From Malus domestica (lineage: Eukaryota; Streptophyta; Magnoliopsida; Rosales; Rosaceae): DNA of 64,000 nt. The notes under the pieces were generated by a model. The model was given only the letters and a program-made list of their open reading frames with translations. It was not told the DNA's origin and ran no database searches. A program made the position numbers and the translations under genes. Below are positions 4,461 through 61,968 of this stretch, in pieces. Numbering within the stretch: the first letter of the stretch is position 1; each line of letters opens with the position of its first letter. The stretch spans positions 39,443,501 through 39,507,500 of the forward strand of contig NC_091671.1 of assembly GCF_042453785.1 (NCBI RefSeq). The letters run 5' to 3'.

Positions 4461-5405
4461 GGTAACGGGTGTCGAGGTTGTTTCCATTTTTTTTTAAAAG
4501 ATATCAGTTGGGGCTTCATCACGTAGTTTATTTTTGGGGAATTGAGAAGATTCATAAAGGTATTTTAGCTTTTTTTTGTCATCATCGTATGATTTACCAG
4601 CGCCAGAAATCGAACGTAGGACTTGCTGTATGGAATACGAGGCTAGAAATCGTCCCAATTACTGGACCACTCCGTGATGGCTAAGGTTGTTTCGATTCTA
4701 GATTTTCATGAGCTTATCAACACGTATGAAACAACCTAAGTAATTCAATACTAAAAAATACGTAGTTAGATTGATTACAAAAGTATTTGATTGTATACAT
4801 GCACATTCTTGTATATGCTCATTCTCTAATCTCTATTGTATTGTCAACTTCATACATTTTTTTACTTCTCATTTCAAGTAAATAAACATATCAATCTTCT
4901 CGATTGATGTCTTAACCTCAATCCATGCATAGCATATAGAATAATACATTGTAATAAAGTTCCACACGCTAAATGCATGCACCAAACTGTAACAAAACAA
5001 AATATTAGTGTCACGTTTAAAAAATAACACATGTGCACAATATTTAAATTCAAACATATTCAGTTAACCAATAAGTTATTTCCGAATGAGGATCCTCTTC
5101 GGATCTTCTTTGTGAAGATTCCGGAGATCTTTAAATTGTGTCATTCATCGTACATCGTACGGTCAGAAATTATTTTAAATACTTTTATTTAAAATTAAAT
5201 ATAAATAGTACCTAATGAAAACTAGTCGTACAATGTACGAACGATGAACGAACACAATTTAAGGATCTAGAGAGGATTCAGAGAGGATTTATTTCCAGCA
5301 CTGTCTTACTTTTGGTTTAGAAGTCGTCTTCACTTTCCAAGTTGATTCCATACCTAACTTCTTGTCTTGACTTAACGATGTTATTCTATATTTTTATATT
5401 TACAT
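4461..5405. repeat. Tandem duplication, copy A
   Basis: The unit begins GGTAACGGGTGTCGAGGTTG and is repeated immediately downstream as copy B (5446-6352) with scattered differences. Copy A is interrupted by a GGATCC MITE (5084-5288) that copy B lacks. Neither copy has coding capacity. Shared landmarks include the 'CATGAGCTTATCAACAC' and 'TCCATGCATAGCATATAG' words. Confidence 0.85.
5084..5288. mobile_element. GGATCC-family MITE inserted in duplication copy A
   Basis: A 205-bp foldback element starting GAATGAGGATCCTC. TTATTTCC flanks it at 5076-5083 and 5289-5296, and a ninth base differs. The corresponding site in copy B, near 6228-6236, reads TTATTGCC with no element, which is a natural empty site. 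Confidence 0.85.
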
Positions 5406-5445: not shown

Positions 5446-6352
5446 GGTAATGGGTGTTGAGGTTGTTTCCATTTTTTTAAAAATTGGAACTTTAACGAAA
5501 AGCATCCGGTACCGTTCACTTTAACGAAAAATCACATTTTTACACTAAAAAGTTAATCCTGGTACTATTCACTTTACCCTTTATTTTGTCCTTATCATTA
5601 AAACTCAAAGTTTTCAAGTCATTTTCATTAGTTTTCCTTTTAAAAAGAGATCAGTTAGGGCTTCATCATGTTGTTTATTTTGGGGGGAATTGGGAAGATT
5701 CATAAAGGTATTTTAGCTTCTTTTTTGTCATCATCGTATGATTCATCAAGGCTATAAATCAAACGCATGACGTGCTGTGTGGAATACGAGGCTAGAAATC
5801 GTCTCAATTACTGGACCACTCCACGATGGCTAAGGTTGTTTCGATTCTAGATTTTCATGAGCTTATCAACACATATGAAACAACCTAAGTAATCCAATAC
5901 TAAAAAATACGTAGTTAGATTGATTACAAAAGTATTTGATCGTATACATGCACATTCTTGTATATGCTCATTCTTTAATATCTATTGTATTGTAAAATTC
6001 ATACGTTTTTTTACTTCTCATTTCAAATAAATAAGCATATCAATCGTCTCGTTTGATGTCTTAACCTCAATCCATGCATAGCATATAGAATAATACATTG
6101 TATTGTAATAAAGTTCCACACGCTAATATGCATGCACCAAACTGTAACAAAACAAAATATTAGTGTCACGTTTAAAATATAACACTTGTGCACACAATAG
6201 TTAAAGTCAAAGATATACAATTAACCAATAAGTTATTGCCAACACTATCTTACTTTTGGTTGAAAAGTCGTCTTCACTTTCCAAGTTGATCTTATACCTA
6301 ATTAGCATCTTGTCACGACTTAACAATGTTGTTCTATATTTTTATATTGATA
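5446..6352. repeat. Tandem duplication, copy B
   Basis: The second copy of the unit at 4461-5405. It lacks the GGATCC MITE of copy A but carries an AACGAAAA-family MITE at 5484-5637 that copy A lacks. Each copy therefore dates the other's insertion as later than the duplication. Confidence 0.85.
5484..5637 (+). mobile_element. AACGAAAA-family MITE in duplication copy B, 9-bp TSD
   Basis: A 154-bp element starting TTGGAACTTTAACGAAAA and ending CATTTTCATTAGTTTTCC, so its termini are imperfect inverted repeats. TTTTAAAAA lies on both sides (5475-5483 and 5638-5646). Copy A near 4490-4500 shows the uninterrupted poly-T/A site. Confidence 0.8.
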
Positions 6353-18859: not shown

Positions 18860-18864
18860 ACGCT
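18860..18864. repeat. Target-site duplication (ACGCT), left
   Basis: ACGCT immediately precedes the left LTR and recurs directly after the right LTR at 31301-31305. Five base pairs is normal for Ty3/Gypsy integrase. Confidence 0.97.
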
Positions 18865-19376
18865 TGTTGATGCACAAAATCAGCGAAGACTTTGGTACAA
18901 CAGAAAGTGTCAGGTTTTATGACCTTCGCTTGGTTGCTTCGGTCACTAGTGAGGATAAGTACGTAAATGAATAGAGACAGAGAAGCAAACACAGGATGTA
19001 CGTGGTTCACCCAGATTGGCTACGTCCACGGAGTAGAGGAGTTCTTATTAGTAGTGAAGGGCTTACACAAGTACAAAGGATCAAGCTCTCAATTTAGTGA
19101 GTTCCTGTGAATGATTTAACACAAATGGCATTAGGCAATATTGTGGGGGAATGACCCCTATTTATAGAAAAACTTGTAGCTTTGTCACATTGACATGTGT
19201 CATGTTATGATTGGTTCTTGATGTCGACACGTGCTGCGCTCTGATTGGCTTCTAATCTTGACACGTGTCGAGTAGTGATTGGCCTCCTGGTCGGAGGGGA
19301 ACTCTTCTGGGTCCTTGACAGTATAGCGTTGGCCGGTGCTCGGTAGTTTCGGGATTGGTCAAGTATGGTACAAACA
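18865..19376 (-). repeat. 3' LTR
   Basis: 512 bp, TG...CA termini, identical to the other LTR except at 18907. The TATA box (TATAAATAGG on the minus strand) is at 19157-19166. The triplicated 34-bp U3 unit is at about 19192-19293. Confidence 0.97.
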
Positions 19377-19390
19377 GTGCTCCCCTAAGT
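19377..19390 (-). promoter_or_regulatory. Polypurine tract
   Basis: On the minus strand this reads ACTTAGGGGAGCAC directly before the 3' LTR. That is the position and composition expected for the plus-strand primer. Confidence 0.8.
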
Positions 19391-21366
19391 TCCCGAGTGA
19401 GGGAAACTCCTCGGTTGGGGACTTGCAAGATCCAATCCCTTGAGTAATCACGAAACTTCTAAGTACCGAAGTGTGGTCTGATCTTCATCTGCCCTTCTCT
19501 GGAAGTACCTTTCCTCCATCCGGGAATGGTGTATTTAGCTGATGAAGATGCACAAGGTAATGTATCAATTTCACTTTGAAGCTTACTTGTAGTTTCGGGC
19601 TTGGTCAAGTGTGATACAAACCCTATAGTAGGAGTCCCCCAAGTCGCCGAGCTAGGAGATCTGCCGAAAGAGGTGACAGACAAGATAAGCAGTCAAACTT
19701 CCAAGTAAGCAACCCAGGATCAGAGGTTTGACTTCGGCTTCCGGTTGATTGTTCTCATTCTCCTTGTCTCTCATTCAACTGCCAGGATAAGGAGAAGCAA
19801 ATGGATAAGAGATGATATGAGATACTTTTGCTTTTGAAGAAGTAACTTTCCACAGGCTTATTCTTGAACTGTGCTGGAGGGTTTTCTGGTGCCCTTCAGA
19901 GTATAAGGCCGACTCAAAAATTTGAGGGTCAAAACAAGTCCATCAAATCTAGAGTACGTTCGACCTTGATGATATGGGATACTTTTGCTGTTGACGGAAT
20001 AATGAATGTGGTATGGAAAGGTGTCGTGCTGTAGTGATCTGTTTCAGCTCACCGTTGAACCTTCTGCTTCAATCTTTTGCATGGCAGAAATGGTGTGCAA
20101 CCTTTGCATTTAAATGGTCCTTCAGAACATTCCTTCATAGTGACTCATCCACGCTTGGCAGCTTCAGTGTAAAGAGCCAATATCTGATCAACTGTCATGA
20201 GGTATTTGCCGGTGGAATTCGTGACCTTGACAGCAGTTGAGGATGAGTACTCGAGAGCAATGCTAAGTAAGCAACCAGGCAAAGGCTCCAGGCAGTCAGT
20301 TCCAAGTTGGAGGTTTGATTTCAGGTTCCGACTGACTGCTCTCTTTCTCCTTGTCCTGCAGGTGTGGACAAGGACAAAGACAAAGACAGGGAGAAAGCAT
20401 GATATGGGATACTCTTGCTTTCGACCCTGATGATATGAGATACTCTTGTTCTTGGTGTGGCTTATTTGCTGAGGTATTATCGGGGGGAAATAAAGCTGAG
20501 TATTTCGAGAGGTTATGTTGAGGGTGCCTTTTCGAATGCGAGAAAGGGTTGAGCATTTTTGCAGGTTTGTCTGTCCGTTGAGGAGGGAGGTCAATGTATA
20601 TAGGGATTTCCCAATAACAAGTAGTAATGCTATTCCTTTACCCTTCTTGGTCACAGCAATGTAGTGGGAGCTGCCAGCTTCACGTGTTTTAATTTTGTCA
20701 AAGCACTTTGAAAAAGTGGTATGTGGTATCTGGAAAGCTGATATTACGTGTGAAGATTACAGACAAGCTTTATCTAAGGAAATCTGGCTCTCGAAGTTCT
20801 GAGAGTTGTGCCTCTTCCGTTTTCGAACAAGCAATCCCGTCGAGGATCTGACTCTCGAGATTCGGAAAGCGGTGCTACTCCGGTTTTTGAGAAAGTAATT
20901 ATGTTGGGAGTCTTTTCTCGAATGTGAGTAAAGGTTGGACGTTCTTGCCAACCTGTCTTGCCGCAAAACACGGAGGTCGACACACATAGGGACTTTCCAG
21001 TTGTCAAGCAGTGGTGCTGTTCCTTTACCCTTATGGGTAATAGTAGGGTAGCTGGAACTTCGAAATTCTCGTGCCTAAACTTTGTCAGAGATCTTTGACA
21101 AAGTTATATGTGGTACCCGAGGAGTTGATGGTGCATATGGAGAGCGGTGATTGAACAGTAAGATTCACGTGCTTTCTACTTCACCAGAAATCTTCGACAG
21201 AGTGCCCGTAATTTCCGCAAAGCTGATTGTGCATGTGACAGGTGCTGACGAGGCTGAAAAAGCAGGTGCTTCTTCGATTTCTGAGATCGACCCTCGTGGT
21301 CTCTGAGCAGCCCAGCTTTTGAGAAAGCAAACGCCTCTTCGATTTCTGAAGCTCCGTCGAGTGCAG

Positions 21367-21377
21367 ATTTTTATAGA
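21367..21377 (+). promoter_or_regulatory. Possible TATA box for the antisense ORF
   Basis: TTTTTATAGAGG lies roughly 115 bp before the aORF start, on the strand opposite to gag-pol. It is a weak sequence-only call. Confidence 0.3.
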
Positions 21378-21488
21378 GGCTGGCATTAAGTTCCACAGCA
21401 CACTTGAATCTCTACCAGTAGAAGCTCATTTCTTGCACTTCTAAGATCTTGATTTGTCTGACCTCTTCCTTCTTCAACACATTTGAAA

Positions 21489-22163
21489 ATGTCTGGACCC
21501 TCCGACCGTCGTTTTGACTTGAACCTTGGAGAAGAGACAGCCACGCCTTCTCCAGACAACATATGGCGCCCATCCTTCATATCCCTTACTGGTCCTCTTA
21601 CCGTTGGGGATTCTGTGATGAAGAATGATATGACCGCTGCAGTGGTGGCCAAGAACCTTCTCACTCCCAAAGATAACAGACTACTTTCCAAACGGTCTGA
21701 TGAGTTGGCTGTTAAGGACTCTCTGGCTCTTAGTGTTCAGTGTGTAGGTTCTGTGTCTAATATGGCCCAACGCCTATTTGCTAGAACCCGCCAAGTTGAA
21801 TCATTGGCTGCTGAAGTGATGAGTCTCAAACAGGAGATTAGAGGGCTCAAGCATGAGAATAAGCAGTTGCACCGGCTCGCCCATGACTATGCTACAAACA
21901 TGAAGAGGAAGCTTGACCAGATGAAGGAATCTGATGGTAAGGTTTTACTTGATCATCAGCGGTTTGTGGGTTTGTTCCAAAGGCATTTATTGCCTTCGTC
22001 CTCTGGGGCTGTACCTGGTAATGAAGCTTCAAATGATGAACCTCCAATGCCTCCTCCTTCTGGGGTTTTGTCAAGTACTGAGGCTCCGGATAACCACCCT
22101 CCGGTGCTTTCTCTTTCTGGGGCTCTACCGACTGCTGAGACTTCCCCTAAGCAACCTTTGTGA
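21489..22163 (+). CDS. Antisense additional ORF (aORF) of the Tat element; leucine-zipper protein
   Basis: An intact ORF of about 224 aa from ATG 21489 (two codons upstream, 21483 is an alternative). It is transcribed opposite to gag-pol and lies between pol and the 3' LTR. Visible features (numbered from 21483): FDLNLGE at 11-17, resembling an EAR-type DLNL motif; a perfect L-x6 zipper (L108, L115, L122, L129) in a charged helical stretch of about 104-148; and a Pro/Ser-rich tail with three imperfect repeats of roughly 18 aa. A canonical AATAAA at 22231 follows the stop. Similar proteins annotated as 'uncharacterised' are, as I recall, frequent in Rosaceae genomes. The function is unknown. 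It could be a regulator of the element or a captured host domain. Confidence 0.7.
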   Translation: MSGPSDRRFDLNLGEETATPSPDNIWRPSFISLTGPLTVGDSVMKNDMTAAVVAKNLLTPKDNRLLSKRSDELAVKDSLALSVQCVGSVSNMAQRLFARTRQVESLAAEVMSLKQEIRGLKHENKQLHRLAHDYATNMKRKLDQMKESDGKVLLDHQRFVGLFQRHLLPSSSGAVPGNEASNDEPPMPPPSGVLSSTEAPDNHPPVLSLSGALPTAETSPKQPL

Positions 22164-22230
22164 AGGCTCCCTTTTGTTTGTTTATTTTGACTCATGTATA
22201 TGTACATATTTGTGGCTTATCGAAAATATT

Positions 22231-22236
22231 AATAAA
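22231..22236 (+). terminator. Candidate polyadenylation signal for the aORF
   Basis: AATAAA about 70 nt after the aORF stop, on the same strand. Confidence 0.45.
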
Positions 22237-22779
22237 TAAGCTTTGCTTCATTTCAACATATTGTATTAAATACACCAAAGCCTTCTTCATAAAGTTCTTT
22301 GAATTTTTGCTTTTGTTGAAACCTGTATTGTTGAAGCTTTGTGAGTGAAGCATGTAGTTTGAGGTAGTGTTCCCTTAATTTCCCGAGTGAGGAAAACTTC
22401 TCGGTTGGAGACTTGAAAAATCCAAGTCACTGAGTGGTTGTGAGACTGCCGAGTATCAAGGTGCAGTAGCATATGGTGGGAGTCCCCCAAGTCTTCAGGC
22501 GAAGAGAGTTGCCGAATGAGGTGTCTCGCGTGTTACTAATTTGTCAAAGTAACGAATCCTTGTTTCGATGTCACACATTCGTATATGCTTTATCTAAAAA
22601 TATTTCCAACTTTTGTGTGTTTGATGCTGCATGCTATTGACTAGACAAGATCAAGTGCAATTAGTAGCTTTTCTCTCTTTTTCATCTTTTCTTTGGTGGA
22701 ATTACTTTTCGTTTCCACTAATCAGCCTGAGTGGATGCAAGATAACACCTTTCTCTATAGCTCAGATTGCAAAGTCGTC

Positions 22780-23400
22780 TTCATGAAAGTTTTTCCTTAT
22801 CTTGTGAACTACAACATATCCAAATTTGAGATCCATCGGAGTAGTACAACTTCAGAAATTCAAGTATGATGAGTAACTGTTCATCAATGTTCTGTTAATC
22901 CGTCAGACTTGTTGTGAGCTTCGAAACTCCATTTTCTCTTGTTCAGATCAACATACTTTCTTCATCGAAGTTGTTCCTTAACTTGTGAACTACAACATAT
23001 CCAAATTTGAGGTCCCTCGGAGCAGTATAACTCCAGAAATCCAGGTATGATGAGTGACTGTTTATCATTTGTCTGTCAACCCGTCAGATTTGTTGTGAGC
23101 TTTGAAACTCTATTTTCTCTTGCTCAGATCAGCATTCTTTCTTCATTGAAGTTGTTCCTCAGCTTGTGAACTACAACATATCCAAATTTGAGATCCCTCG
23201 GAGCAGTATAACTCCAGAAATCCAGGTATGATGAATGACTGGTTATTATTTTTCTGTCAACCCGTCAGATTTGTTGTGAGCTTCGAAACTCCATTTGCTC
23301 TTGTTCAGATCGGCATGCTTTCTTCATTGAAGTTGTTCCTCATCGACTCTTTCATAACATATCAAAAATTCAGGATGAACTAACGGTTGAATATTTCCAG
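22780..23400. repeat. 181-bp tandem repeat array in the element's 3' region
   Basis: CTTGTGAACTACAACATATC starts at 22801, 22982 and 23163, giving a 181-bp period. A partial, more diverged fourth unit continues to about 23400-23530. The units differ at a modest number of sites. Confidence 0.92.
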
Positions 23401-23917: not shown

Positions 23918-24437
23918 TTGAAGCTTTCTAGGTGAAGCTTTGATGGTGAAGCTTTGTAGATGAAGCTTTGTAGATGAAGCTTTCTAGGTGAAGCTTTGAT
24001 GGTGAAGCTTTGTAGATGAAGCTTTCTAGGTGAAGCTTTGATGGTGAAGCTTTGTAGATGAAGCTTTGTAGATGAAGCTTTCTAGGGGAAGCTTTGATGG
24101 TGAAGCTTTGATGGTGAATGTATGTAGAGGGAGCATTCTAGGTGAAGATTTTTTAGGTGAAGCTTTGTAGGTGAAGCTTTTTTAAGTGAAGCTTTTCGGG
24201 TGAAGTTTTTTTTTTTTGGGTGAAGCTTTTTAGGTGAAGCTTTGTGGGTGAAGCTTTGGAGGTGAAGCTTTTCGGGTGAAGCTTTTTGGGTGAAGCTTTT
24301 TAGGTGAAGCTTTGTGGGTGAAGCTTTTTAGGTGAAGCTTTGTGGGTGAAGCTTTGGAGGTGAAGCTTTTCGGGTGAAGCTTTTTGGGTGAAGCTTTTTA
24401 GGTGAAGCTTTTCGGGTGAAGCTTTTTGGATGAAGCT
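23918..24437. repeat. GTGAAGCTTT minisatellite
   Basis: Dozens of 12-14 bp units built on GGTGAAGCTTT, with variable linkers (TGTAGA, TCTAG, GATG, TTCGG, TGTGG). They show higher-order repetition and many HindIII sites. A poly-T tract follows at 24439-24461. Confidence 0.95.
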
Positions 24438-24672: not shown

Positions 24673-27600
24673 CTATTTGTAGTAGTACTTCAAGTGATCA
24701 GCGTTCCATGGATGGCCAAGGGTCTTGCCATCGGAGCTTCTAAGTGTGTAAGAGCCAGGGCGACTGATGCCAATGACTTCATACGGTCCATCCCAGTTTG
24801 GACTAAGTGTGCCTTCACTCGGGACTCTGTCGCAGAGTAATCTTTTCTTTAAGACCCAATCTCCTATTTTGAAAGAACGAGGCTTGACCTTAGAGTCATA
24901 ATAGTTGGAGATGCGCTGCTTGTAGGCGACATTCCTCAAGTGAGCTTGGTTTCTGTGTTCCTCGACTAAATCCAAGTTGAGGGTGAGTTGTTTGTCATTT
25001 TCACTTTGAATGTAGTTCTGGACTCGGAATGTTGCTTGCTCGAGCTCAACAGGGACAACCGCCTCTGTGCCAAAGGCAAGTGAGAATGGAGTTTCTCCTG
25101 TTGAAGTCCGATATGAAGTGCGATATGACCAAAGAACTTGGGGTACAAATTCTGGCCAACAGCCTTTAGCTTTGTCCAAGCTGGTTTTCAAAGTGCGCTT
25201 GATTATTTTGTTGATGGCCTCAACTTGTCCATTAGACTGGGGATGAGCTGGAGAGGCAAAGCATAAGTTGATGTTGAACTTAGAGCAGAACAACCTGAAC
25301 TTCTTGTTGTCAAACTGTCGCCCATTGTCAGTGACTATCGCATTGGGAATGCCGAATCTACAAAGGATGTTCTTCCACACGAAGTCTTCTATCTTTGCCT
25401 CAGTAATGGTTGCCAAGGGTTCTACTTCGGCCCACTTTGTGAAGTAGTCCACTGCAACGACTGCGTAACAGACTTTGCCCTTCCCTGCCGGCATTGGGCC
25501 GATCAAATCAAGTCCCCACTGGGCGAAGGGCCAAGGGCTGATCATAGGAGTAAGAGGCTCTGGAGGGGAATGAGAAATAGTTGCATATCGTTGACATTTG
25601 TCACATGAGCGGGATACTTTGATGGCATCCTGGTGGAGTGTTGGCCAGTAATATCCTTGGCGAAAAGTCTTGTGTGCTAGGGACCGAGATCCAGCATGAT
25701 CTCCACAGACTCCCTCATGTATTTCCCGAAGGACGATTTCCGCCTCGGCAGGCGTAAGACACCTTAAGTATGGCAGGCTAAAACCTCGCTTATAGAGTTG
25801 ATCATTGATGATCAGGTAGCGGGTAGACTTGTATCGAATTTGCTTAGCCTGGACTTTATCATTTGGGAGGGTGCCATGAGCAAGGAAATTATAGATCGGG
25901 GTGATCCAACTATCCCCCTGTTGTAAGTTGCATACTTCTGCGGCCATGGTGCTTGGTGTTGCCAACAGTTCGACATGAATTTTTCTTCCAATCTTGTCTT
26001 CCACAGCCGAGGCGAGGCGAGCCAGGGCGTCTGCATGACTGTTTGCCGCTCGAGGAACTTGGGTGATCTGGTAGTGGAAGTGCTTGAGCAAAAGTTGTGT
26101 TTGCGCAAGATATGCTGCCATGGAGCTGTCCTTAGCATCAAAGTTGTTGGTAACCTGGTTGACCACCAATTGGGAGTCACTGAAAATATCAATTTGTTTA
26201 ACCCCGAGGTGTTTGGCCAAATGTAATCCTGCTAGAAGGGCTTCATACTCGGCCTCATTATTTGATGCCTTGAATTTGAAACGAAGAGCATACTCCATTG
26301 CTACTTTGTCGGGTGTAGTCAAGACTAGTCCCGCTCCACAGCCCTGTTGGTTGGATGAGCCATCAACATACAGACTCCATGCTGGGGTTGTTGGTTCTAT
26401 CTTCTGAGCTTCCGGGGGTAATGAAGCCACTGCTTCAGGTGTAGAAGCAATGTCAACCGGATATGTGAAGTCGGCAATGAAGTCTGCCACTGCTTGGCCC
26501 TTCTCAGCTGGCTTTGGTTGGTAGGAGATGTCAAACTCACCCAACGCTATTGCCCATTTGATCATTCGCCCTGAAGTGTCAGGACTTTGGAGTATCTGTC
26601 GAAGAGGATAATTGGTAAGCACGATGATGGAGTGCGCTTGGAAGTAAGGGCGGAGTTTTCGAGCAGACATGACCAATGCCAGAGCCAATTTCTCAATGTT
26701 AGAGTACCGTGTCTCCGCATCTTGTAAGGCTTTGCTAGCGTAGTAGACAGGTTGCTCAATATTCCCATCCTTTCGAATGAGAACGGAACTTACGGCTGAA
26801 GCTGATACCGATAGGTAGATAATGAGAATGTCTCCTACCTCGGGCTTGGAGAGTAGAGGGGCTTTACTCATGTACTCCTTGAGGTTTTTGAATGCCTCGG
26901 CACATTCATCAGTCCATGTAATGTACTTCCTACTTCCCTTAAGTGCTTTAAAAAAGGGAGCACATTTGTCTGTGGCCTTAGAAATGAACCTGGTTAAGGC
27001 TGCCACCTTGCCAGTAAGGCTCTGGATGTCCTTTGAAGTTACCGGTTCCTTCATGTCGAGGATTGCTTTGATCTTCTCGGGATTAGCTTCAATGCCTCGT
27101 TGGCTAATCATGAAACCTAAGAATTTGCCAGAGCCTACGCCGAAGGCACATTTGTTGGGGTTTAACCTCATTCGATACCTCTTCAAAATAGTGAAAGTTT
27201 CAGATAGGTTGGTGATGTGTTGGTCAGCATGTTTGCTCTTGACTAACATATCATCAACGTAAACTTCCATGCTCTTCCCAATCTGCTCGGCGAACATTGA
27301 GTTGACTAGTCTCTGATAAGTCGCTCCTGCATTCTTTAGGCCGAAAGGCATGACTTTATAGCAGTATAGTCCTCTGTCGGTAGTGAAGGCTGTGTGTTCT
27401 TGATCCGAAGGGTTCATGAGGATTTGGTTGTATCCTGAGTAAGCATCCATGAAGCTCAGGAGTTCACACCCGGCCGTAGAGTCTATAAGTCTGTCAATAA
27501 GAGGAAGAGGGAAGCTATCTTTCGGACACCCTTTGTTTAGGTCGGTGTAGTCAACACACATTCTCCACAAGACCTTTTGAAGCAAAAGACTTTCTTTGGT

Positions 27601-30600
27601 CGGATTTTTCTTAACAAGGACCACATTTGCTACCCATGTCGGGTAATTGACTTCGCGGACAAAGCCTATGCCTTTGAGTTTTTCAACTTCTGCTTTCATT
27701 GCCTCGTATCGTTCAGCGTCATAAGATCTTCGCTTCTGTCTCACCGGCTTGATCTTGGGGTCAATACTCAAACGATGACAGATGACATCGGGAGAGATGC
27801 CTGGCATGTCCTCGTATGACCAGGCGAAGACTTCAGTGTTCTCTTTCAAAAAAGATATCAATGCTAACCGAAGGGGTGGTGACAATGTGGTGCCAATCTT
27901 CACCATGCGATCTGGATAATCTCTGGAGATAGGTACCTTCTCCAACTCTTCAGCAGGTTGGGCTTGCTGGGTGAAAGAGTCATCTCGAGGATCATCGGGT
28001 TGATTGTTGCTATCAGGAAGATCTAAGTTTGCTTCATCTAGGCTGGTCTTTGTGACTTGGTCATGTACAGACAGGGTTTCCTTGGGTCCGGGCAAGTGTT
28101 GTTGCTTAACTGAAGTGTTGTAACATGATCGTGCACTAAGCTGATCTCCTCTGATGTAGCCGTTTCCATGGGGGGTTGGAAATTTCATCAACAGCATATG
28201 CGTGGATACCATAGCCTTGAGATCATTGATGCCTGTGCGCCCAAAGATGACATTGTATGCCGTTGGGCAGTCAACCACTAGGAAGTTAGTGGTAATGGTA
28301 GCCATGTAAGGGCCTGTACCAATAGTAAAGGGTAAATGTATGCTCCCTAAGGGTTGCACGATATCACCGGAGAAGCTTATCAGAGGAGAAATCGAGCGAT
28401 CGAGCAAGTGTTCAGCTACACTGAGTGCCCTGAAAGCTTCGGCAAACATGATATTGACCGAAGCCCCTGTGTCTACGAGGATTCGTCGAACATCAAAGTT
28501 GGCTATGTGAGCCTCCACGATCAATGGGTCGTTATGAGGGTAGATGATGCCTCTTTCTTCCTCAGGGTAGAAACATATCGGATCCCAGTTAGGCTTTTGA
28601 TACTTCCCTCCCCTGATGTCTTCCACGTGAAACACTTGGTGACCAGGCCTCAGAATTCGTTCACTGTTTTTCAAGGCCCTATTGGAAGATTCAGATATGG
28701 GTGTGCCGCCGCTTATGGAATATATGACATTCACCTGGCGTTGGTTACGGTTATCCCTTTGAGGGTGAAGGAGGAATTGATCAATTTTTCCTTCTCGTGC
28801 CAAAGCTTCAATACGATCACGGAGGATGATACATTTCTCGCTATCATGGCCGTTATGCTCATGATAGCAACAAAACATGCCCGCGTTATTCGGGGGCGTG
28901 TAATCTGGGTGCCTCGGCTTTGGCTTTGGTATCAGGTGAGCTATGCTGGGGTAAATGGCCGCGCATGTGGCATTCAAGGGCGTGTATGTCTCATACCTTG
29001 GGGTAGGGGGTATCTTGACGCGAGTTTGACCCACTGCATTGACTGCCTGGGGGCGAGCGTTATTGTGGCGATACCCTTGGTTATCGGGATAGTGTCCCTT
29101 ACTCTTTTTACTGAAATGAGAGTGGTGAGGATGGAAATCCTTCCTCTTGCCTTGAAATTGATATGTCTGTTGATTCGGCGAAGCATTATGCAAGGCATGG
29201 GGAGGTGCCACTGCTGTTTGGAAAGTCGAGGTCTTCTCATTTAGGTGAGTTTGGCTTCCACCACCCACTTGTTGATAAAGGATGGTTGTAGGGGGTTTCT
29301 CCTGATATGTCTTTGCCTCGGCGGAGGCATGGTTATAAGCCTGCGCCATCACCTCAGAGTAAGTCTTCCAAGTATTGGCATTGATCATGTATTTAAAGAA
29401 ACAATCACGTAGGCCTGCCGTGAAGGCTTTGAGGGCAGTCTTGTCGTCTGCCTCGGCACACCGGGAGTATTCATGGCTGAAGCGGCCAGCATACATACGT
29501 AATGACTCGTCTGGCTTCTGGCGGATAGTGTACAAGTCATCTGCAGAGTGCAAGCGATCAGTTTGGAAAATGTGTTGGGAAACAAATAGTTTCCTCAATT
29601 CCTCAAATGAGTCTACCGTCTCAGGTGTAAGACGACAATACCAATTTAGAGCTCCACTAGAGAGGGTGGAGGGGAAGAGAAGACATCGTTCTTCGTCGGT
29701 GTGCATCCGGTATGCCATGGTGGACTCAAAGAGGTTAAGGTGCTCAATCGGGTCCTCTTTTCCAGTATAAAGTTGAAAGCCAAGCTTTTGCTTTGTCTTT
29801 GCTTGAAGGGGGGTGTTGAGGATCCTCCTTGTAAGAGGGCCAGGCCTGGGTTGGTTCCAGTCAGGTATTTCAGCCTGACGTTCAGCCTTCAACTTGTTTA
29901 CTTCCTCAAGAATTTGTAGGACAAGGGGGTCCTGAGCGGAGTTATGTGTCACTGGAGCTTTCTTTCGTAAATCTCCATCTCCTATTGGAGTTAGGAAGGT
30001 TTGATCAAGGGCATGTGATTTTTCCCTGGACTCGCTGTACTGGCTTCCAGGGTATGTCTGTCGGAACACCTCTGAGTCCCCTGTACCCTCATGTCTCTCT
30101 GGGACTTGTTGCCCCTTCCCCAAATTGGTGGCCGGCTTGGGCCGTGGCAGGGGACCGAGTCTCTCAGAAATCCTTGGGTCATTAATCTTTGAGCTTATAT
30201 GGATGGAATTCTCTCGACGTTGCTTCAGGAAATCCCGACAATCGCGAAAGACGGCTTTCGATCCTTCTGCCCCTTCAGCAAAGAGGTGTCTCCCTCCACT
30301 TCTCATGGTTCGGGTCGAAGCAACTGGGTTAAGAGAAGCCTCATGTTGATTATCAAGTCGAGGGGTAATCTGTTCCCTATTAGGGATATCTATGTCGAAT
30401 GCATGTGACCCTCCATGTTGGAGGGCACCCAGTTGATGGTTGACTTCCACGGGGGCAACAATCTCGCGTGTCTGAGCTTGCCTAGCTTCGTGGAGTGTCT
30501 CGAAGAGCTTCTCATATTGCTCATGGAGGACCTCATTCCTCATTGCTATCTTGTTGTTCTGAGCTTCCAACTCATCGACTTTAGCTTGAAGAAGAACTCG

Positions 30601-30681
30601 TTTTCCTTCCTTCTTTCGTTGTTTCGCACTATGTGCAAGGGGGGTGTCATTCTGTGTGCTGTGGCTTCCTTCGCTTCCCAT
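24673..30681 (-). CDS. Gag-Pol polyprotein of the Tat retrotransposon
   Basis: One uninterrupted frame of about 2002 aa from ATG 30681. The frame is open upstream to 30801, but that part overlaps the PBS and LTR. Domains below are numbered from 30801. Retrotransposon gag is about 345-500. A CxxH..GH....C-type knuckle (CYHEHNGHDSEKC) lies near 647. The aspartic protease DTGAS is near 775. Reverse transcriptase is about 1060-1240, with YVDDM near 1180. A gypsy RNase H is about 1310-1420. A second RNase H (LYVDGSSN near 1480, NNEAEYEAL near 1518, SDSQLV near 1543) is about 1475-1600. Integrase has an HHCC finger ending CDKCQRY near 1733 and D, D, E near 1763, 1826 and 1862. Gag and Pol share one frame, so no frameshift is needed. 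No stop or lost catalytic residue was seen. Confidence 0.96.
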   Translation of the reverse strand: MGSEGSHSTQNDTPLAHSAKQRKKEGKRVLLQAKVDELEAQNNKIAMRNEVLHEQYEKLFETLHEARQAQTREIVAPVEVNHQLGALQHGGSHAFDIDIPNREQITPRLDNQHEASLNPVASTRTMRSGGRHLFAEGAEGSKAVFRDCRDFLKQRRENSIHISSKINDPRISERLGPLPRPKPATNLGKGQQVPERHEGTGDSEVFRQTYPGSQYSESREKSHALDQTFLTPIGDGDLRKKAPVTHNSAQDPLVLQILEEVNKLKAERQAEIPDWNQPRPGPLTRRILNTPLQAKTKQKLGFQLYTGKEDPIEHLNLFESTMAYRMHTDEERCLLFPSTLSSGALNWYCRLTPETVDSFEELRKLFVSQHIFQTDRLHSADDLYTIRQKPDESLRMYAGRFSHEYSRCAEADDKTALKAFTAGLRDCFFKYMINANTWKTYSEVMAQAYNHASAEAKTYQEKPPTTILYQQVGGGSQTHLNEKTSTFQTAVAPPHALHNASPNQQTYQFQGKRKDFHPHHSHFSKKSKGHYPDNQGYRHNNARPQAVNAVGQTRVKIPPTPRYETYTPLNATCAAIYPSIAHLIPKPKPRHPDYTPPNNAGMFCCYHEHNGHDSEKCIILRDRIEALAREGKIDQFLLHPQRDNRNQRQVNVIYSISGGTPISESSNRALKNSERILRPGHQVFHVEDIRGGKYQKPNWDPICFYPEEERGIIYPHNDPLIVEAHIANFDVRRILVDTGASVNIMFAEAFRALSVAEHLLDRSISPLISFSGDIVQPLGSIHLPFTIGTGPYMATITTNFLVVDCPTAYNVIFGRTGINDLKAMVSTHMLLMKFPTPHGNGYIRGDQLSARSCYNTSVKQQHLPGPKETLSVHDQVTKTSLDEANLDLPDSNNQPDDPRDDSFTQQAQPAEELEKVPISRDYPDRMVKIGTTLSPPLRLALISFLKENTEVFAWSYEDMPGISPDVICHRLSIDPKIKPVRQKRRSYDAERYEAMKAEVEKLKGIGFVREVNYPTWVANVVLVKKNPTKESLLLQKVLWRMCVDYTDLNKGCPKDSFPLPLIDRLIDSTAGCELLSFMDAYSGYNQILMNPSDQEHTAFTTDRGLYCYKVMPFGLKNAGATYQRLVNSMFAEQIGKSMEVYVDDMLVKSKHADQHITNLSETFTILKRYRMRLNPNKCAFGVGSGKFLGFMISQRGIEANPEKIKAILDMKEPVTSKDIQSLTGKVAALTRFISKATDKCAPFFKALKGSRKYITWTDECAEAFKNLKEYMSKAPLLSKPEVGDILIIYLSVSASAVSSVLIRKDGNIEQPVYYASKALQDAETRYSNIEKLALALVMSARKLRPYFQAHSIIVLTNYPLRQILQSPDTSGRMIKWAIALGEFDISYQPKPAEKGQAVADFIADFTYPVDIASTPEAVASLPPEAQKIEPTTPAWSLYVDGSSNQQGCGAGLVLTTPDKVAMEYALRFKFKASNNEAEYEALLAGLHLAKHLGVKQIDIFSDSQLVVNQVTNNFDAKDSSMAAYLAQTQLLLKHFHYQITQVPRAANSHADALARLASAVEDKIGRKIHVELLATPSTMAAEVCNLQQGDSWITPIYNFLAHGTLPNDKVQAKQIRYKSTRYLIINDQLYKRGFSLPYLRCLTPAEAEIVLREIHEGVCGDHAGSRSLAHKTFRQGYYWPTLHQDAIKVSRSCDKCQRYATISHSPPEPLTPMISPWPFAQWGLDLIGPMPAGKGKVCYAVVAVDYFTKWAEVEPLATITEAKIEDFVWKNILCRFGIPNAIVTDNGRQFDNKKFRLFCSKFNINLCFASPAHPQSNGQVEAINKIIKRTLKTSLDKAKGCWPEFVPQVLWSYRTSYRTSTGETPFSLAFGTEAVVPVELEQATFRVQNYIQSENDKQLTLNLDLVEEHRNQAHLRNVAYKQRISNYYDSKVKPRSFKIGDWVLKKRLLCDRVPSEGTLSPNWDGPYEVIGISRPGSYTLRSSDGKTLGHPWNADHLKYYYK

Positions 30682-30770
30682 GTTGGAGAGGGATGCCTGA
30701 TCAAAAGAAAGTGTACGAATGATAGAAACCAGCTTGACACAGCTGAAGAGAGTAGGAAAAAGTGTCGTTT

Positions 30771-30788
30771 CCCACAGACGGCGCCAAA
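30771..30788 (-). promoter_or_regulatory. Primer-binding site
   Basis: Immediately after the 5' LTR the element reads TTTGGCGCCGTCTGTGGG. TGGCGCCGT matches the complement of the tRNA-Asp 3' end, as I know it for Tat/Athila elements, after which the match weakens. Confidence 0.75.
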
Positions 30789-31080
30789 TGTTGATGCACA
30801 AAATCAGCGAAGACTTTGGTACAACAGAAAATGTCAGGTTTTATGACCTTCGCTTGGTTGCTTCGGTCACTAGTGAGGATAAGTACGTAAATGAATAGAG
30901 ACAGAGAAGCAAACACAGGATGTACGTGGTTCACCCAGATTGGCTACGTCCACGGAGTAGAGGAGTTCTTATTAGTAGTGAAGGGCTTACACAAGTACAA
31001 AGGATCAAGCTCTCAATTTAGTGAGTTCCTGTGAATGATTTAACACAAATGGCATTAGGCAATATTGTGGGGGAATGACC

Positions 31081-31090
31081 CCTATTTATA
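31081..31090 (-). promoter_or_regulatory. TATA box of the 5' LTR
   Basis: TATAAATAGG on the minus strand. Transcription would start some 25-35 nt further toward lower coordinates. Confidence 0.7.
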
Positions 31091-31115
31091 GAAAAACTTG
31101 TAGCTTTGTCACATT

Positions 31116-31217
31116 GACATGTGTCATGTTATGATTGGTTCTTGATGTCGACACGTGCTGCGCTCTGATTGGCTTCTAATCTTGACACGTGTCGAGTAGT
31201 GATTGGCCTCCTGGTCG
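31116..31217 (-). promoter_or_regulatory. Triplicated 34-bp U3 unit with G-box and CCAAT box
   Basis: GACATGTG (31116), GACACGTG (31150) and GACACGTG (31184) are spaced exactly 34 bp. Each is followed by ATTGG (31134, 31168, 31202), an inverted CCAAT box. Two units contain a perfect G-box CACGTG (31152, 31186). The array sits directly upstream of the TATA box in element orientation. Confidence 0.85.
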
Positions 31218-31300
31218 GAGGGGAACTCTTCTGGGTCCTTGACAGTATAGCGTTGGCCGGTGCTCGGTAGTTTCGGGATTGGTCAAGTATGGTACAAACA

Positions 31301-31305
31301 ACGCT
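31301..31305. repeat. Target-site duplication (ACGCT), right
   Basis: Matches 18860-18864. Confidence 0.97.
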
Positions 31306-60437: not shown

Positions 60438-60511
60438 CACGCCCTGTAGGATTTGAACCTACGACATCGGGTTTTGGAGACCCACGTTCTACCGAGCTGA
60501 ACTAAGAGCAC
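60438..60511 (-). tRNA. trnW-CCA: trnW-CCA, plastid-derived copy
   Basis: 74 nt on the minus strand. The anticodon loop TCTCCAAAA gives CCA. The T-arm GGTTCAAATCC is intact. Acceptor-stem pairs include G-T wobbles. Probably not expressed. Confidence 0.9.
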
Positions 60512-61387: not shown

Positions 61388-61694
61388 ATGGATAAATCCA
61401 AGCGAATCTTTCTTAAATCTAAGTGATCTTTTCGTAGGCGTTTGCCTCCGATCCAATCGGGGGATCGAATTGATTATAGAAACATGAGTTTAATTAGTCG
61501 ATTTATTAGCGAACAAGGAAAAATATTATCTAGACGGGTGAATATATTGACCTTAAAACAACAACGATTAATTACTAGTGCTATAAAACAAGCTCGTATT
61601 TGATCTCCGTTACCTTTTCTTAATAATGAGAAACAATTTGAAAGAAGCGAGTCAACCGCTAGAGCTTCTGGTCTTAGAACCAGAAAAAAAATAG
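61388..61694 (+). pseudogene. rps18: rps18 with premature stops
   Basis: Starts MDKSKR. In-frame TGA occurs at 61424-61426 (normally CGA) and at 61601-61603 (normally TTA). An extra A in the final poly-A tract shifts the normal stop. The rest follows plastid S18 ([20 protein letters not shown]). Confidence 0.93.
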
Positions 61695-61968
61695 GTTGAC
61701 TCTTCAATTGAATTGAATCAAAATAAAATTCCAATCCAAACTCAAATGCGGATTGACGTTTTTTTTTTGTTTGAAAAATCGTAAAATCGAAATGTCCTGT
61801 CGTAAGAAAAAAAATGGGAGAAGAGGAATAAATATTTTTTATTTAACGTCTTTCTTCATTTTGATGACTTTATCATATTTTATCATACTAATTTCTACTC
61901 TACATTCCCAGAGTTCATTCTCCAGGGAACTCCATTTAAACTATTCCAACGGATTCCTTCCAATCTCT

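Follow-up and report, generated by a model that had tools for sequence, protein, structure and literature searches.

An antisense gene for a leucine-zipper protein in a Tat-like retrotransposon of apple, shared with a second family of elements without detectable gag-pol

The window analyzed here is a stretch of 64,000 bp of the genome of the apple, Malus domestica (C11:39443501-39507500), which contains a young, Tat-like long terminal repeat (LTR) retrotransposon with an open reading frame (ORF) on the strand opposite to gag-pol. This antisense ORF (aORF) is a selected gene, under codon-level purifying selection both between two families of elements and within the second of these families. The two 512-bp LTRs of the host element differ by one mismatch (1/512 sites), and the target-site duplication (TSD) ACGCT is found on both sides. 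The gag-pol frame, four pieces of which were scanned separately, contains matches to gag, reverse transcriptase (RT), RT_RNaseH, a second RNase H-like domain (RVT_3), and integrase, and the pairing of RT_RNaseH with RVT_3 is presumably a mark of the Tat lineage. The 5.3 kb between pol and the 3' LTR hold two tandem arrays and the antisense ORF, which does not overlap gag-pol. The location is that of an aORF-3R, antisense to gag-pol and between pol and the 3' LTR, and the ORF is present, with protein-like conservation, in most of the copies of the family.

The plus-strand frame is open from position 21462, its first ATG is at 21489, and its stop codon occupies positions 22161-22163. It is the sole one of the six listed frames that is open across the stretch. 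The original prediction, which was made from the sequence of the window, began the ORF at 21483, where there is a TTG, six bases upstream from the first ATG. Its description of an ORF running opposite to gag-pol within the retrotransposon is correct, with the two frames on the plus and minus strands, respectively.

The same prediction recognized a perfect heptad of four leucines, and these are confirmed as L106, L113, L120, and L127, at the d positions of a coiled coil whose a positions are V103, V110, I117, and N124. With these residues at a, the zipper is stronger than first described, and it has the composition expected of a leucine-zipper coiled coil, with at least four heptad leucines, and beta-branched residues or Asn at a. 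The four heptad leucines alone are found in 3.6% of 100,000 shuffles of the aORF protein, whereas these leucines in combination with V, I, or N at each of the four a positions were recovered in 1 of 100,000 (1e-5). A search of Pfam with the aORF protein returned no family above the cut-off, and weak matches to coiled coils. A bZIP factor is recognized by a basic region with the spacing N-x7-R-x9-L, in register with the zipper, and the absence of this spacing from the protein led to the rejection of this assignment. A bZIP_1 match was obtained for the core of the second family, at no better than E 0.4, and covers the zipper part alone.

The copies of the gene were collected from a genome of 651 Mb in 19 contigs. 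A DNA search with the antisense gene recovered at least 40 copies at 99-100% identity over 754 bp (the best 40 of 4,008 candidates), while a degenerate pattern, FDLN-[LF]-G, with other leucine codons, produced 220 matches versus 11 for the reversed control, and provided the diverged copies. A tblastn match was found at 78 loci, from which L003-L008, further window-type matches with the same protein as L002, were dropped, leaving 72 copies; L001 is the window copy, and L002 its near-identical sister. These copies were classified by the sequence downstream from the ORF into 37 of the window class, 32 of a second class (C3), and three of neither. As L009-L079 were picked by the FDLN pattern, the conservation of this motif within them was not used as evidence. 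A search that is independent of the motif used codons 17-165 as its query, and 148 of the best 150 of its 9,625 candidates have no stop, as do 142 of the best 150 of the 9,630 candidates obtained with the window-class query.

Conservation in 32 copies is 0.81-0.96 between the ATG and approximately +500, 0.49-0.81 in the leader, and approximately 0.20 just upstream from the TATA box. When the window copy of the gene, or the nearly identical L002, is compared over codons 1-165 with five stop-free copies of the C3 class (L027, L041, L065, L066, and L076), the nonsynonymous rate (dN) is 0.076-0.101 and the synonymous rate (dS) is 0.47-0.62, which gives dN/dS ratios of 0.13-0.21, far from the value near one that had been named beforehand as evidence against a functional gene. 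The ratios among the five C3 copies themselves are 0.13-0.32, and those between the window copy and ten other stop-free copies of both classes, which include neutral decay after insertion, are 0.20-0.56. On the same pairs as the first comparison, the two other sense frames give 1.2-2.6, and two of the antisense frames give 0.8-1.0 and 1.6-3.1. The frequency of the variants in codons 1-165 of the 72 copies provides further evidence, with 219 nonsynonymous (N) and 61 synonymous (S) singletons, versus 26 N and 30 S alleles found in at least 10 copies (p=4e-6), a result that stays when codons 1-16 are left out (p=5e-6). The same difference is found in the C3 class alone, where the singletons are 113 N and 47 S, and the shared alleles are 18 N and 33 S (p=1e-5), while there is none in the tail of the protein (p=0.58).

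A number of results weigh against selection on this protein. In the window class alone, the singletons (147 N and 51 S) and the shared alleles (18 N and 10 S) do not differ significantly (p=0.26). A cruder measure, one omega fitted to all of 27 stop-free copies, is 0.53 in the core and 0.50 in the tail, and does not separate the two. The third antisense frame also gives 0.16-0.23 on the control pairs, though it is closed across the region, as expected of a frame that shares its third-position bases with the plus frame. Changes between the classes at the a and d positions of the zipper (1/8) are not significantly rarer than elsewhere (7/22; p=0.39). The openness of both of the 150-copy samples is biased upwards, as these are the best-scoring of approximately 9,600 candidates.

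The TATA box and the AATAAA that had been proposed for the ORF are both present (Table 1). A TTTATA is found at -145 to -90 from the ATG in 35/37 window-class and 30/32 C3-class copies (65/69 of the classified copies), compared with 4/555 and 21/480 background windows in the respective classes, and is kept although the sequence surrounding it has changed. In 59/72 copies, an AATAAA is found in the 300 nt that surround and follow the stop, versus 24/144 windows farther downstream. Given this conservation on both sides of the ORF, the promoter, ORF, and terminator resemble a transcription unit, and the antisense gene is most likely read from its own internal promoter, an expression that is suggested by these signals.

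Other features were noted in the vicinity of the gene. A block at 20909-21129, which is 360-580 bases upstream from the ATG, is more conserved than its surroundings in the 32 copies (0.54-0.77), and may be regulatory. A palindrome at -410 was considered as a binding site for a dimer, and was rejected, given that just two of the 28 copies examined, L001 and L002, have it. The sequence at 22367-22523, just downstream from the gene, is 75-79% similar to that at 19377-19675, adjoining the 3' LTR, so that the region of the antisense gene is flanked by two direct repeats, which may be the trace of an insertion or duplication. Between the antisense gene and the 3' LTR, there is also an open stretch of 203 residues in the sense direction (20148-20756, minus strand), with diverged internal duplications.

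The N-terminal FDLNLGE of the protein had been likened to the ethylene-responsive element binding factor-associated amphiphilic repression (EAR) motifs. A DLN is found somewhere in 8.3% of the shuffles of the aORF protein, and the motif is thus unremarkable by itself; its conservation is not. In 40 copies sampled without reference to the motif (20 N termini from each of the 150-copy lists), FDLN is invariant (40/40), and is followed by I in 19 copies, F in 12, L in eight, and R in one, that is, by L, F, or I in 39/40, while the second residue after it varies (G, R, V, S, or I). This pattern fits a short docking motif with alternating hydrophobic residues. Neither LxLxL nor DLNx(x)P is found anywhere in the window protein, however, and its FDLNL is N-terminal, with no proline nearby, whereas the characterized DLNx(x)P motifs are mostly C-terminal, and may need the proline, according to excerpts of PMC9956375. 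The same excerpts report that the N-terminal LDLNVE of wheat Q binds TOPLESS (PMC9956375). The resemblance to EAR stands in the invariant FDLN and the hydrophobic residue that follows it, and fails in the strict forms of the motif.

Table 1. The antisense gene and the other features of its host element (positions in the window).
Feature	Position	Strand	Remarks
Antisense ORF (aORF), 224 aa, single open frame	21489..22163	+	conserved block of the copies (32 copies); dN/dS
TATA box of the antisense gene, TTTTTATAGAGG	21368..21379	+	
FDLNL, residues 9-13	21513..21527	+	EAR-like, but not in the strict sense
Leucine-zipper coiled coil, residues 103-127	21795..21869	+	heptad; shuffles
Pro/Ser-rich tail, residues 166-224	21984..22160	+	little or no detectable constraint
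AATAAA	22231..22236	+	68 bases past the stop
3' LTR	18865..19376	-	512 bp; TSD ACGCT at 18860-18864
Tandem array, 181 bp unit	22778-23340		
Tandem array, 14 bp unit	23919-24437		
gag-pol, single open frame, 2042 aa counted from a TTG	24673..30801	-	
5' LTR	30789..31300	-	TSD ACGCT at 31301-31305; primer-binding site TTTGGCGCCGTCTGTGGGAA adjoining

The same antisense gene is found in a second family of elements, with unrelated 1.7-kb LTRs, a different primer-binding site (PBS), and no detectable gag-pol. The five stop-free copies of the C3 class were read in a context of 6-8 kb (L039 and L080-L083), and five pieces of the window gag-pol, searched by tblastn at E up to 1, found no gag-pol in these copies or in L084-L086. 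The window LTR has no match in L080-L084. One element on C3, which is bounded on both sides, has 1.7-kb LTRs that are 99% identical, the target duplication ACGCC, and an interior of 5.8 kb, which holds a sense frame of 486 amino acids and the antisense gene. An element on C8 has LTR pieces that are 99.3% identical over 1,081 bp. Its antisense gene, whose end lies 540 bp away from the 5' LTR, is alone among the ORFs of the internal region in reaching 100 amino acids. In L081, only approximately 560 bp lie between the PBS and the antisense gene, and L080 is disturbed by an inverted LTR copy.

Athila elements are marked by a PBS of the tRNA-Asp type, TGGCGCCGTTGCCGGGGA, and by long LTRs. The PBS of the second family is TTTTGGCGCCGTTGCCGGGGATT, versus the TTTGGCGCCGTCTGTGGGAA of the window element, and we take it to be the tRNA-Asp type of the Athila elements; with this PBS and a 1.7-kb LTR, but without a pol by which it might be placed, the family is a candidate for the Athila lineage. 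HODOR (9,716 nt), which is named in PMC8558331, was considered as a possible identity of the family. A search with the 1.7-kb LTR yielded at least nine same-strand pairs 6.9-7.6 kb apart, and no pair spaced to hold gag-pol was found among the matches listed (the best 40 of 6,128 candidates); an autonomous member with these LTRs may exist. The 486-amino acid sense ORF (L083:4435-5892, plus strand) is in the gag position of the pol-less element, and has at least 88 relatives genome-wide and no Pfam match. It may be a relic of an Athila-type gag, and one pair in which it lies within 4 kb of an aORF was found among 64 by 29 places, among the matches listed.

The window gene and its relative in L039 are 81.5% identical over 737 bp, from approximately 160 bases before the ATG to around codon 190. 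Their LTRs, by contrast, show no match at all, and this is most simply explained by a movement of the promoter and ORF between elements, by recombination. The retention of the gene as the sole long ORF inside an element that lacks pol argues against a role confined to helping its own gag-pol, and in favor of a benefit to the copy that carries it, or to its family. If the gene persists in elements that have no gag-pol for it to serve, its role must lie in the behavior of the carrying copy, through expression, silencing, or packaging.

Retand elements typically carry an antisense aORF in the interval from pol to the 3' LTR, 97% of the clusters encode TRP28, and a regulatory role has been proposed, according to passages of PMC11963269, which is akin to the reading presented here. 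The original prediction that the antisense aORFs of the Tat elements are known, while their role is not, agrees with these passages and with those of PMC7264820. The apple gene differs from this type in being found in elements without gag-pol as well, and its assignment to the TRP28 type (PF04195) was rejected, as its protein has no TRP28 match at E up to 10. TRP28 itself has 24 matches in this genome, none of them in the window.

The HBZ protein of human T-cell leukemia virus type 1 (HTLV-1) has a leucine zipper. HBZ and the APH-2 of HTLV-2, which are mentioned in passages of PMC11963269, resemble the apple gene in being encoded by an antisense gene for a small protein at the 3' end of a retroelement, but the N-x7-R-x9-L spacing is absent here, the promoter is internal rather than in the 3' LTR, and no homology is claimed. 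The gene23 of the maize element Grande, as described in excerpts of PMC7264820, is likewise an antisense accessory gene with its own promoter, from which it is transcribed, and its product is nuclear; this comparison is by description only, and the apple gene is known from sequence alone, whereas nuclear location and transcription are reported for gene23. In Arabidopsis, the pol-less families of Athila keep intact ORFs under purifying selection, and LTR families recombine with each other, according to excerpts of PMC2410132. These are also non-autonomous LTR families that retain selected ORFs, although the ORFs retained there are gag and env, in place of the antisense gene that the apple family has in common with an element whose LTRs are of a different type. 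Among the open-licence full texts searched, mostly by listing, none dealt with a zipper or an FDLN motif in an aORF, or with this gene of apple. Searches by tblastn found no relatives outside this genome in viral_contigs or genome_contigs, both of which are mostly microbial, and silent on other plants.

The antisense gene probably does something for its elements. Our preferred reading, which we consider reasonably probable, is that it is a genuine accessory gene, with an internal promoter from which it is transcribed, and that it encodes a coiled-coil regulator of its own element family. The protein would consist of three parts, the N-terminal FDLN motif with its hydrophobic residue, a conserved helical core with the zipper, and a poorly constrained tail. 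A GCN4-like zipper should yield a parallel dimer, as the heptad suggests, and the dimer might then act as a regulator or adaptor of the expression or silencing state of its own element, through a host protein docked on FDLN. Part of the interpretation first put forward survives in this reading, in the form of an element-encoded antisense gene with its own signals, purifying selection, and a convincing zipper-type coiled coil, and the EAR motif as originally stated does not.

A narrower version, in which the dimer recruits TOPLESS-type corepressors through the FDLN and hydrophobic residues, and represses the element or the genes of the host, appears unlikely, and a regulator is likelier than a TOPLESS-recruiting repressor. 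The invariance of FDLN, the constraint on the next residue, and the freedom of the one after it (G, V, S, I, or R) are in its favor, as is the N-terminal motif reported for wheat Q in the excerpts of PMC9956375, but both strict EAR forms and a nearby proline are missing, the motif is N-terminal, and the profile searches recognized no DNA-binding domain. This last result also counts against an anti-silencing factor, which would counter the methylation or silencing of its own family by the host. The VANC proteins of the VANDAL elements are the model for such a factor, which would explain the retention of the gene in pol-less elements, as these still need transcription, and there are tandem arrays in the same region, although the only palindrome seen upstream is confined to the window copy and its near-identical sister (2/28 copies). 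We regard this role as decidedly improbable.

There is a similarly small chance that the protein is a cytoplasmic cofactor of the particle or nucleoprotein, with the coiled coil contributing to assembly, RNA binding, or the nuclear import of the particle. Pol-less copies need packaging by others, and could gain from such a cofactor, and related accessory roles are discussed in passages of PMC7264820. No match to a gag-like or RNA-binding family was found, however, and a parasite would not keep a helper that is freely shared: as it could borrow one, it should lose its own, so that retention in the pol-less family suggests an advantage to the carrier. Two further explanations were already disfavored. 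A function at the level of the RNA, in which what counts is the antisense transcript, with the ORF carried along as a passenger, could draw on the conserved promoter, and antisense transcripts are discussed as triggers of silencing in passages of PMC7264820, but selection acts on codons in the plus frame, where synonymous-only constraint would have been needed, and this explanation is scarcely credible. The idea of a chance ORF, or a decaying relic without function, is just as implausible; many old copies do carry stops, and the window-class test is not significant, but the between-family dN/dS, the conserved TATA, the FDLN in all the sampled copies, and the high proportion of stop-free copies in both scored samples all stand against it.

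Beyond the preferred reading of a coiled-coil regulator, it is tentatively possible that the promoter-ORF block travels between lineages of LTR retrotransposons, and that, in a numerous family without pol, no other long internal gene is left. Such a block would amount to a selfish regulatory gene nested in elements that are selfish themselves, and its dimeric FDLN protein would favor the carrier through the control of host chromatin or corepressors at the copies of its own family. The gene offers a clean handle on the antisense genes that are common in the Tat and Retand elements: its short protein combines a single invariant linear motif with a single zipper, its promoter is conserved, and the pol-less family separates it naturally from gag-pol.

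Two minor observations were made elsewhere in the window. A direct repeat of approximately 600 bp (4491-5080 and 5638-6237), with copies 92% identical and 1.15 kb apart, is perhaps a small separate element. A tRNA-Trp(CCA) and a tRNA-Ile(GAT) are predicted on the minus strand, at 60438-60511 and 61658-61745, respectively, in a region that is perhaps plastid-derived DNA.
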